A stretch of 64,000 bases of DNA. Source: an uncultured Gemmatimonadota bacterium (GTDB lineage Bacteria > Gemmatimonadota > Gemmatimonadetes > Gemmatimonadales > Gemmatimonadaceae). Both the position numbers and the translations under genes were made by a program. The notes beneath the pieces are model-generated. The model was given only the letters and a program-made list of their open reading frames with translations, did no database searches and was not told where the DNA came from. Below, one piece after another: positions 26,919 through 30,105 of this stretch (its first letter is position 1; each line of letters opens with the position of its first letter). The DNA lies in the NCBI GenBank assembly GCA_902826615.1, contig CADEFN010000001.1, positions 62,001 to 126,000 on the forward strand, given 5' to 3'.

Positions 26919-27778
26919 ACGACTGGGAGACGCTGACACGCCTCCTCGTCTACATCCAGGCGCACCTCGACCAAGACCTGAGTCTCGCGGCGCTCGGCGA
27001 CCGAGCAAGTCTTTCGCCCGCTCATTTGCAGCGTGTGTTCAAGGCAGCCGTCGGTGAGACGCCCAAGGGGTACGTCACACGGCTCCGCGTCGAGCGCGCC
27101 GCCTTCTGCCTGCTTGCCCACGAGACCGCGGTTGGAGAGATCGCGGCCAGTTGTGGCTTTCAGAACCCGGAGACGTTCATCCGCGCGTTTCGTCGGCGTT
27201 TTGACAAATCACCGCGTGAATATCGGTTGAGCGGCCGCGCGGACGTGGCGGGGTGGAACAAGGAGCGGCGCGAAACACTGACGGCGCCGCACTTCGAGCT
27301 CTCGCAGACGCGCCTCGTCGTGATTCGCCCGACGCATGTTGCCTTTCGGCGGCACGTCGGGCCGTACGAGGATGTTCCCGAATCGCTCTTCGACGAGCTG
27401 GAGCGATGGGCCACGCGCCGACGTCTCCCCGGGCCGCGAACGTGGGCGGGCATAGGACACGACGCGCCGATTACCACTCCGGCCGCACAGCTGCGGTTCG
27501 ATGCGGCGCTTGTGGTGCCCGGCCCCTTCGAGCCGAGTGGGTTGGTGGGCTACCAGCTCATTGCGGGCGGGCCGCATGCGGTGACCACTCACGTCGGTCC
27601 ATATGAAACGCTCGGTGCGGCGTACGCCAGGATCTTTCCGCGACTCTCGGCGTTCAGGGAGTACGAGTTTGTGGGGCTTCCCGCGTTAGAGGTCTTCCAG
27701 GCGGCAAGGATCAGTGTCCGCTTTGCGCTGAATCACACGGACATCTGCCTGCCGATGCGGAGGAAGGTGATGGTCTGA
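26915..27778 (+). CDS. AraC-family regulator with GyrI-like effector domain
   Basis: A 287-residue regulator. The N-terminal 105 residues form two helix-turn-helix units (LAALGDRASLSPAHLQRVFK and VGEIAASCGFQNPETFIRAF), ending in the SPREYR signature. The rest is a GyrI-like/SOUL-type ligand-binding domain (VAFRRHVGPYEDVPE, RFDAALVVP and the THVGPYETLGAAY block). Such proteins resemble Rob and bind hydrophobic compounds to control efflux or stress genes. The coupled membrane protein upstream may be its target or sensor partner, which is inference. Confidence 0.9.
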   Translation: MNDWETLTRLLVYIQAHLDQDLSLAALGDRASLSPAHLQRVFKAAVGETPKGYVTRLRVERAAFCLLAHETAVGEIAASCGFQNPETFIRAFRRRFDKSPREYRLSGRADVAGWNKERRETLTAPHFELSQTRLVVIRPTHVAFRRHVGPYEDVPESLFDELERWATRRRLPGPRTWAGIGHDAPITTPAAQLRFDAALVVPGPFEPSGLVGYQLIAGGPHAVTTHVGPYETLGAAYARIFPRLSAFREYEFVGLPALEVFQAARISVRFALNHTDICLPMRRKVMV

Positions 27779-27839
27779 GGAGTTGGATTGTTCGCGCGGC
27801 GCGGTCGCGGCTATGGGCCTGTCATCCACGAAGCAGCGC

Positions 27840-28183
27840 TCAGATGCGCATGAGCACTTGCTCCACGAGGTCGGCTGGCACGCGGCCAGCCGCTGCGCAC
27901 GACGCATTCGCCAGTCGAGCGACTTGACCTGATCCGCGAGTACCGCGCCACGGACCCGGCCCGTGGCCGGGAGCACCACCTCGAACGGATATCCCTTCAC
28001 GTGCGAGGCATCGGACAAACGAGCGCCAGCCCGACGCTCGTTGTACGACGCCGGCGACAGGGCGAGGGCTGGACGCGGACCGGCCTGCTCGTGTCCGGCC
28101 TTCGGATCAAGCTCTAGCCACACTGCGTCGCCGCGATCAGGGGCGAAGGATGCGCGCCGTCGGGGGGCGGAGACCTTCACCAC
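27840..28183 (-). pseudogene. mazF: Degenerate mazF-like toxin gene
   Basis: A MazF endoribonuclease remnant. RGDAVWLELDPKAGHEQAGPRPALALSP at the N-terminus and HVKGYPFEVVLP and ADQVKSLDW later are good matches. Between them the frame reads ERRAGARLSDAS, where another frame gives SVGLALVCPMP, the expected family sequence; two compensating indels are implied, removing the conserved PxT region. After DWRMRRAQRLAA a third shift occurs: the alternative frame gives VPADLVEQVLMRI then TGA at 27840, the expected end, while the present frame runs on to 27686. The GTG start overlaps the end of mazE. Loss of RNase activity is likely but not certain. Confidence 0.72.
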
Positions 28184-28416
28184 ACTTCGTGTCCCCGGGG
28201 TCCCCCGGTCGACACCTCGCCGTGCACGTTTTCAGGCGTCACGCGCTCCAGCAGAGCAGTCAGCGACGTGGCCGGGTCCACGCGCCGGATGACGAGCTGC
28301 TGGCCGTCGAGGACAAGCTCGACTTCCGAGCCGTCGCGCACCGCCATGGCCCGGGCTGCCGTGGCGGGGAGTCGCACCGCCAGACTGTTGCCCCATTTTC
28401 GAAGTGCGACCCGCAT
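28177..28416 (-). CDS. mazE: MazE/AbrB-type antitoxin
   Basis: A 79-residue swapped-hairpin DNA-binding antitoxin. MRVALRKWGNSLAVRLP and VRDGSEVELVLDGQQLVIR give the AbrB fold, and LLERVTPENVHGEV is the toxin-binding tail typical of MazE. ATG at 28416 starts directly on the fold; the open frame extends to 28470. The TGA stop overlaps the GTG start of the mazF remnant, preserving operon structure. The antitoxin is intact while its toxin is not, which fits decay of a toxin-antitoxin pair. Confidence 0.85.
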   Translation of the reverse strand: MRVALRKWGNSLAVRLPATAARAMAVRDGSEVELVLDGQQLVIRRVDPATSLTALLERVTPENVHGEVSTGGPRGHEVW

Positions 28417-28645: not shown

Positions 28646-28677
28646 TAAACAAAAGCCCGACCGCGCGGGCCGGGCTT
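28646..28677 (-). terminator. Rho-independent terminator downstream of the attC cassette
   Basis: On the minus strand AAGCCCG and CGGGCTT pair across an 11-nt loop and are followed by TTTTGTTT. It lies just beyond the attC site in the direction of the immunity gene, and so would end transcripts of the Rhs/immunity unit. Confidence 0.75.
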
Positions 28678-28699
28678 CCGTCTCACATCCTCTTCTGTT

Positions 28700-28765
28700 G
28701 CCTAACCAGGCGTGCAGCTGGCAGGGCGATACCGCCGCCCTGCAGCTGACGCTTATGGGTTAGGC
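28700..28765 (-). other. Integron attC-like recombination site
   Basis: The 66-bp site is bounded by GCCTAAC (28700-28706) and GTTAGGC (28759-28765), which fit the attC core consensus RYYYAAC...GTTRRRY. Between them lie long inverted arms: GCGTGCAGCTGGCAGGGCG (28710-28728) pairs with CGCCCTGCAGCTGACGC with exactly two unpaired bases on one side. Extrahelical bases of this kind set strand choice by integron integrases. Reading on the minus strand, the site starts at the stop codon of the preceding gene, as in a gene cassette. No integrase and no second attC are in the window. Confidence 0.75.
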
Positions 28766-29242
28766 ACCGGTCTTGCGAGAGTCGTGCCCTTCAGGAAAGT
28801 AGCTCGTCCACTCGCTCGCGTAGCGCCCCCGTACCAGCCGGGCTAGTACGGCCTCACGGTCCCTCGTTGCTACGTCGACAACCCGGCTCGGCGCCTCGCC
28901 GATTCCTCTCGCTTGCAACAAGCCTACGATGACCTGTCGTTCGTCGAACCCTGTCTTGAGGATTCCCTGCGACTCCTCGTCCAGCTCCGCCGGGACTACA
29001 CACACCCTTCGCTCCGCACGCCCCCCTCCAGTAATGCGTGCAGTGAGTGCTGCTAGCGACTCCAGCTCCGTCTCCCAAAGCACAAAGGTCTGCACCTCCG
29101 CGTGTGGGTCTCCGACGAGCAAGAAGCGCAGGACGGGAGAGCCCTCATACTCGGCGAGACCTTCATGCGGGCCATCGTGCCAGTCCGTGGCAACCACTTG
29201 TCTGGGCCGTACCCCTTGCAAGTTTCTTGTGTTCAACGTCAT
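28760..29242 (-). CDS. Putative Rhs-toxin immunity protein, attC-associated
   Basis: A 160-residue acidic, soluble protein with no family I can name. It overlaps the end of the Rhs-fragment gene by 4 bp (ATGA, 29239-29242), the arrangement expected of a toxin and its cognate immunity gene. Its TAA stop lies inside the GTTAGGC box of the attC-like site, the position expected of a cassette gene. Visible features include two Trp-containing acidic stretches (ATDWHDGPHEG and FVLWETELES) and no signal peptide. The immunity role is inferred from position only. G+C content looks somewhat lower than in flanking core genes. Confidence 0.7.
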   Translation of the reverse strand: MTLNTRNLQGVRPRQVVATDWHDGPHEGLAEYEGSPVLRFLLVGDPHAEVQTFVLWETELESLAALTARITGGGRAERRVCVVPAELDEESQGILKTGFDERQVIVGLLQARGIGEAPSRVVDVATRDREAVLARLVRGRYASEWTSYFPEGHDSRKTGA

Positions 29243-30105
29243 TGGCGGAAGAGCCTATTGATGAGATCCACTTGCGATTGCGTCAGAGGCTTGGGAACCT
29301 CGAGCGTGTGGTGAGTTGGGTCCGCCCGTGTGGGAGTGACATGGACTCGGAAGTGCTGACTGATTTCATCCAAGGTCGCTCCAGGACCAGCGTGCTCAGG
29401 CGTGCCGAACTTCGCGCGATTACCAGTGAGAGAGATCCCGTGCGGCCATCCTGCCGCTTCGGCTTCAGCCGCTTGGCCAGCGAGGCGCCGCAGACTCTCA
29501 GCACCCTTCGCAATTCGATACAGCCGATAGGCACCGCCCGCCGCGGTCGCTTCAGGTGCAAACGTCGAAAGCGCAATTCCGAGGACGGCTTGAGAAGCGG
29601 GGTGCTCAGCCCCCTGGCCAACGGCGTTGAGAGCAGCGCCCATGAACATGCCCGGTCGCGGGCGCAAACACGGCGGATTCGGGCACAGCCCAAACGGATC
29701 GGAGAAGTTGACGGGATCGCCATTGGCGTAGCCATAGAGGTTGAGGCCGCCGGCGAGGCCGATGGGATCTTCTTGCGTGAACTGCCCCGCCGTGACGTCG
29801 TAGTACCGGTTCCGCTTGTATTGCCGTCCCGTTTGATCTTGCTGCGCCCACACCAGGCTGCCATACCACCCCGCCCCGTCGGGATCCATGCCGTACGGCC
29901 CCCACGCCCCCACTCCCCTGCCCCGCCGGAAACTGCAAATCGGTCGGGCAGGGACCGGTGAAACAGGTCGCGTTCACATACAGCCCGCGCCAATCCGTGT
30001 AGGGATACACCACCAGATTCTCTTTGAACAGGGCCACGGGTGCATCCAGTCCGGTGCCCTCCACGTAGCCCACGCGCCCGTAGAAAGCGGAGGTAGCTTG
30101 CTCTC
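29239..30105 (-). pseudogene. Rhs polymorphic toxin, C-terminal fragment with frameshift
   Basis: The 3' end of an Rhs/YD-repeat gene. From 30105 one frame reads FYGRVGYVEGTGLDAPVALFK and WRGLYVNA up to DLQFPAGQG; it then shifts within a G-rich run at about 29899-29930 into a second frame that reads WGPYGMDPDGAGWYGS, YKRNRYYDVTAGQFTQEDPIG and LYGYANGDPVNFSDPFGL, the Rhs core end. After DPFGL follows about 150 residues of variable toxin tip (HGISLTGNRAKFG, VHVTPTRADPTHHTLEVPKP). The tip family is unknown to me. The large N-terminal Rhs shell is missing; an in-frame stop lies at 30104-30106. It could be a displaced orphan tip or a decayed gene. Confidence 0.75.

Follow-up and report, generated by a model that had tools for sequence, protein, structure and literature searches.

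The window analyzed here, a stretch of 64,000 nucleotides, lies on a 1.38-Mb contig (C1), one of 98 that make up the 5.9-Mb genome of a soil-type bacterium. On its minus strand it contains the end of an Rhs gene, in which a core end of the pattern DPxGL...DPFG precedes a variable C-terminal tip. The tip reading frame overlaps by 4 bp the frame of a small gene for an immunity-like protein, and the stop codon of this small gene lies inside a 66-bp palindromic element. The earlier note on this DNA had described the element with its two boxes, inverted arms and two unpaired bases, its place at the stop codon of a gene overlapping an Rhs fragment, and a terminator behind it (the hairpin at 28671-28654 of the minus strand); all of these are present as described. 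The features are as follows.

27686..28183, minus strand: MazF/PemK toxin frame (PF02452, 53.2 bits), apparently frameshifted relative to the copies in genomes G154 and G152
28177..28416, minus strand: MazE antitoxin gene (PF04014, 45.5 bits), on the R'' side of the attC site
28654..28671, minus strand: terminator-like hairpin that would act on transcripts of the minus strand; homologous sites have it next to attC as well
28700..28765, plus strand: attC site, 66 bp (covariance model R2, 48.2 bits; fold z-scores below)
28700-28706: R'' box, GCCTAAC
28714 and 28721: extrahelical G residues in the L'' arm of attC; the L' arm is 28736-28752
28759-28765: R' box, GTTAGGC, with the predicted crossover point between G28759 and T28760
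28760..29242, minus strand: immunity-like gene, 160 aa, no known family; its stop TAA (complement of 28760-28762) lies within the R' box, where the crossover is predicted
29239..29913, minus strand: Rhs core end and C-terminal tip of about 149 aa (TIGR03696, 61-63 bits)
29689-29742: Rhs core-end motif NLYGYANGDPVNFSDPFG
29914..30105, minus strand: Rhs core remnant in another reading frame (ORF 29606-30073 in another frame)

A full-length Rhs delivery protein is absent from the window; the core is truncated near position 30105 and frameshifted. Neither the tip nor the 160-aa protein had a match in Pfam, NCBIfam, solved structures or plasmids. The nearest Rhs relatives among public genomes are in Gemmatimonadota MAGs, and the host is therefore probably one of the Gemmatimonadaceae. 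In the relatives G152 and G153, the whole 4.5 kb that separates the YceI and symporter genes is missing; beyond this coarse absence, no base-exact empty site was found in the genus. The window has a single attC, and no second one bounds the Rhs copy. The copy in the window is a relic: its Rhs core is broken, its MazF frame is shifted, and just one attC is present. Because of the single attC and the broken core, it does not constitute an excisable cassette.

Identity and polarity of the 66-bp element

The two boxes of the element fit the R'' (RYYYAAC) and R' (GTTRRRY) sequences of attC sites. The arms between them, GCGT-G-CAGCTG-G-CAGGGCG and CGCCCTG-CAGCTG-ACGC, form a hairpin with the two unpaired G residues in the L'' side and with unpaired spacers, which is the fold of an attC site. 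Compared to shuffled sequences, the folding of the element gave z-scores of -5.2 and -6.1 on the two strands, with none of 200 shuffles folding as well.

A covariance model, R1, was built with 16 attC sites as seeds; 97.2% of the cells in its alignment are paired, with strong covariation that none of 500 shuffles equaled. To guard against circularity, a second model, R2, was made from nine attC sites of the arrays on contigs C23, C16 and C2 only, with the window site excluded. R2 matched the window site on the plus strand with 48.2 bits (E 1.5e-9 in 168 kb searched), and no minus-strand match at this site was listed up to E 1. On contig C10, sites with long terminal structures were missed when the covariance-model filters were turned off and were found by the default search, which was the search used.

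The 66-bp element is a genuine integron attC site on the plus strand. The identification proposed in the earlier note held up, the covariance score lying far above background rather than at it. The possibility of a chance palindrome was rejected because of the match to the array-only model R2, and identity as a known structured RNA was rejected, as the element has no Rfam match. The strand of an attC site is governed mainly by its extrahelical bases (PMC2727003). These bases, together with the strand scores of the models, place R'' at 28700 and the end of R' at 28765. The opposite polarity, in which R'' would lie at the stop of the gene as the earlier note had it, was rejected: R1 scored 67.7 bits on the plus and 27.0 bits on the minus strand, and R2 gave its match on the plus strand only. 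As attC is on the plus strand, the minus-strand immunity gene is inverted (antisense) relative to it.

Integron platforms and attC-terminated Rhs modules

The earlier note had found no integrase in the window, and the whole of contig C1 is likewise without a PF00589 match. An integron inside the window was rejected, given the lack of an integrase on C1 and the single attC. The genome-wide search for intI and further attC sites that the note had suggested returned both. An intI gene is located at C2:944383-945321 (401.7 bits against a cut-off of 265), and a second, shorter copy is on C16. Both copies are followed by attC sites and cassettes; on C2 the first attC is about 1.1 kb from intI, and C16 has several. 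The attI-like junction AATAGTTA is common to the platforms, so attI and an array stand beside intI. Both platforms (L020 9384-11530 on C2 and L021 10602-17048 on C16) have the inverted layout, with intI transcription directed at the cassettes, and both are interrupted by contig ends shortly after. On contig C23, about nine cassettes make up a 7.7-kb array, in which the genes have the same sense as the attC sites they belong to. The non-Rhs attC sites of this genome mostly have a sense gene with its stop at R''; inverted genes are present too in a few non-Rhs cassettes.

Certain insertion sequences are known to target attC; similar to these are IS110/IS1111-like transposase genes, recognized by eye, that adjoin attC on C29 (L137 1997-2689) and C3 (L140 1335-2696). 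Elsewhere on the window contig (L003 1075-1600; C1:1319117-1319216), an attC without its R' half but with the same terminator lies behind a gene that by eye resembles a PIN-domain toxin.

Just three Rhs core ends exist in this genome (in the window, on C3 and on C10), and attC lies directly behind the immunity gene in all three. Read along C10, the elements are attC, Rhs core end-tip-immunity gene (plus strand), attC, a 94-aa gene (minus), attC, two genes (plus), attC, and a 170-aa gene (minus), with every attC on the minus strand. The Rhs tip-immunity unit is bounded by two attC sites inside an array, the left one having been read by eye, used as a seed of R1 and absent from the R2 matches; it is thus a full cassette with inverted cargo, and Rhs modules can be carried as cassettes. 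The two genes (373 and 222 aa; L038 8814-10636) form a second inverted cassette in this array. On C3, a 1.5-kb unit has the order attC-HicAB-core end-tip-attC, with the attC behind the Rhs module at C3:301271-301336. In the relative G154, a 2.3-kb unit of the order attC-MazEF-core end-tip-immunity gene-attC is located downstream of a longer Rhs gene. Only these three modules have attC on both sides; the remaining ones have one.

We surveyed 179 genomes of the family for the window DNA, for attC (with R2) and for Rhs core ends. Eleven attC-terminated Rhs modules were found in six genomes: the three of the genome analyzed here, two each in G154, G158 and G144, and one each in G138 and G134. The attC sites are homologous within subclades, and the 11 modules are not independent. 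In all 11, attC is antiparallel to the Rhs module; in G134, the site is shared by two convergent tip-immunity modules, and one of these is sense to it. The immunity stop falls inside the R' box (GCC TAA C or similar) in the window, in G154, on contig C6 of G158 and on contig C134 of G144, and it is in the box or at most 25 bp away in 10 of the 11 modules. An intI above the cut-off is present in all five relatives that carry attC-ended Rhs modules. Arithmetic from attC density gives 0.04 attC-Rhs neighbors expected in five genomes, where 10 were observed, a figure that serves only as a guide since homologous copies are not independent. The tips are of several kinds: Tox-REase-7 in G154 and, by eye, HExxH motifs in C3 and G144 and a GIY-YIG-like tip in G134. 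Long open Rhs frames precede the attC-terminated immunity gene in G138 and on C6 of G158.

Relatives keeping the gene pair without any attC-like sequence had been named beforehand as the outcome that would count against the idea, and they exist in part: attC is lacking at 54 of the 55 Rhs loci from other genomes of the phylum, outside the clade. The association is therefore clade-specific; attC as a universal feature of Rhs loci is excluded.

In pairwise blastn comparisons of the modules, the upstream homology forms a block of roughly 100 bp that stops 0-24 bp beyond the core motif. Homology restarts at base 1 of attC and continues into the flank in nearly all pairs; the exceptions are two pairs in which it begins 6 and 11 bp before attC. 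The tips and immunity genes between the two blocks are unrelated and gave no alignment.

Explanations for the association

The earlier note had proposed that an immunity gene, with or without its toxin tip, moved as an integron cassette. This is partly supported, by the complete cassette on C10 and the attC-flanked units of C3 and G154, whereas the window copy, with a single attC and a broken core, offers no second boundary; movement itself is read from the arrangement of the loci. Carriage of Rhs modules as cassettes is well supported, and we consider it probable that, next to a true attC, the tip-immunity modules of this clade are carried as integron cassettes, inverted except on one side of the shared site. 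With the end of the immunity gene at the R' box, its stop codon is immediately followed by the cassette boundary, so that excision would leave the gene whole.

For the installation of new tips, the likeliest proposal, a tentative one, is that the integron integrase drives tip exchange, inverted cassettes being captured at attC and promoted by recombination between core ends. The landing site would be the attC behind a resident rhs-tip-immunity operon, a state that the long-frame Rhs genes of G138 and G158 C6 would fit. Here, IntI would insert a circle made up of core end, tip, immunity gene and attC. As the genes of the cassette run opposite to their attC, and those of the resident operon do too, the incoming tip would be co-directional with rhs, and the product, rhs-tip1-imm1-attC-core end-tip2-imm2-attC, would have the arrangement seen in G154. 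Alternatively, a single crossover of the circle via core-end homology would give the same product. Recombination between the directly repeated core ends (about 100 bp) could then install tip2 and delete tip1; otherwise, the orphan pair would persist as an immunity bank. The window copy may be a decayed end state of this capture process.

Tandem tips also occur where attC is missing. Genome G139 harbors eleven orphan Rhs tips in tandem at a spacing of 1-2.3 kb (L181 2337-15884; G139:C2:578336-591883), each preceded by a 115-bp core-end repeat that is 71-91% identical to the reference copy; only these repeats, and no attC, were found in this array. Tip arrays generally thus do not require the integrase, and homologous recombination alone builds arrays too. 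Genes for a XerC-like tyrosine recombinase lie beside orphan Rhs tip arrays (L046 2208-6225, L181 16799-17647, L182 2332-3285, L187 4504-5076, L195 7660-8592, L048 and L198). A DnaG-like primase accompanies the recombinase at some loci, and in L187 the XerC-like gene is about 0.1 kb ahead of an Rhs core end. This recombinase is a possible second mobilization route for Rhs tips.

The G139 array, with its core-end repeat and without attC, speaks for an explanation in which attC and the terminator are old fixtures of the 3' ends of rhs operons in this clade, tips are swapped only by homologous recombination between two conserved flanks (the core end upstream and attC with its terminator downstream), and the integrase is now idle. 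The homology that flanks the variable part at either end, and the conservation of the terminator together with attC, also speak for it. It is nevertheless unlikely: the C10 module resides in an ordinary array, whose attC sites are long, of another kind and without this terminator, the onset of homology at base 1 of attC, seen in nearly all pairs, fits a site-specific breakpoint, and intI occurs in the genomes concerned. Another explanation, that the attC-like sequence serves as attachment site for the XerC-like recombinase found with a primase near Rhs arrays of some relatives, seems quite improbable. L046 and several orphan arrays do carry the recombinase, and in L046 its gene ends 19 bp before an attC, which is followed by an Rhs core end; yet no such gene is near the window, C3, C10, G154 or G158 sites, and the recombinase-bearing L048, L198, L187, L181 and L182 are without attC. 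A palindrome that is merely a transcription terminator or repeat, resembling attC by chance, would account for a strong hairpin adjoining a terminator, but it is hardly credible in view of the E-value from the array-only model, the correct extrahelical bases, the many unrelated immunity genes that end at the site and the absence of an Rfam match.

Relation to known systems

Toxin-antitoxin genes are common cargo of sedentary chromosomal integrons (PMC8618304). The cassettes described here resemble other integron cassettes in their attC sites with R boxes, extrahelical bases and variable terminal structure, in the presence of intI and in their arrays. They differ from the usual ones in their cargo, an Rhs core end, tip and immunity gene inverted to attC, in the stop codon, which is in the R' rather than the R'' box, and in that the sites also stand alone behind chromosomal rhs genes. 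Integron cassettes can scatter at non-canonical attG sites, and the lone attC sites far from an integron platform resemble cassettes scattered in this way; the lone sites reported here, in contrast, recur in one type of setting, at the 3' ends of Rhs immunity genes. Cassettes of the attG type are named in PMC12901181 and PMC12444791.

The modules also share a short conserved core, a variable tip, an immunity gene and displaced downstream orphans with orphan Rhs/CDI modules and T6SS immunity arrays (PMC5361080, PMC10539506). Those orphan modules have been attributed to homologous or illegitimate recombination, whereas the downstream boundary here is attC. The likeness of T6SS immunity arrays to integrons was pointed out in a 2017 study, which reported no evidence for integrase-driven insertion of effector-immunity pairs (PMC5361080). 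In the open-access papers that our search covered, we found no link of integron attC to Rhs tips.

The acquisition of new polymorphic-toxin tips and orphan immunity genes by bacteria has for the most part lacked an explanation. In this clade, attC bounds many unrelated tip-immunity pairs downstream, at least one of them being a cassette. This offers a testable route for the spread of toxin resistance and the swapping of weapons. The cargo of integrons is thereby extended from toxin-antitoxin and phage-defense genes to contact-dependent toxins, and the integron may serve bacteria to gather and exchange contact weapons and the matching defenses. If the integrase does drive tip exchange, an SOS-type recombination system would diversify contact weapons and immunity jointly.
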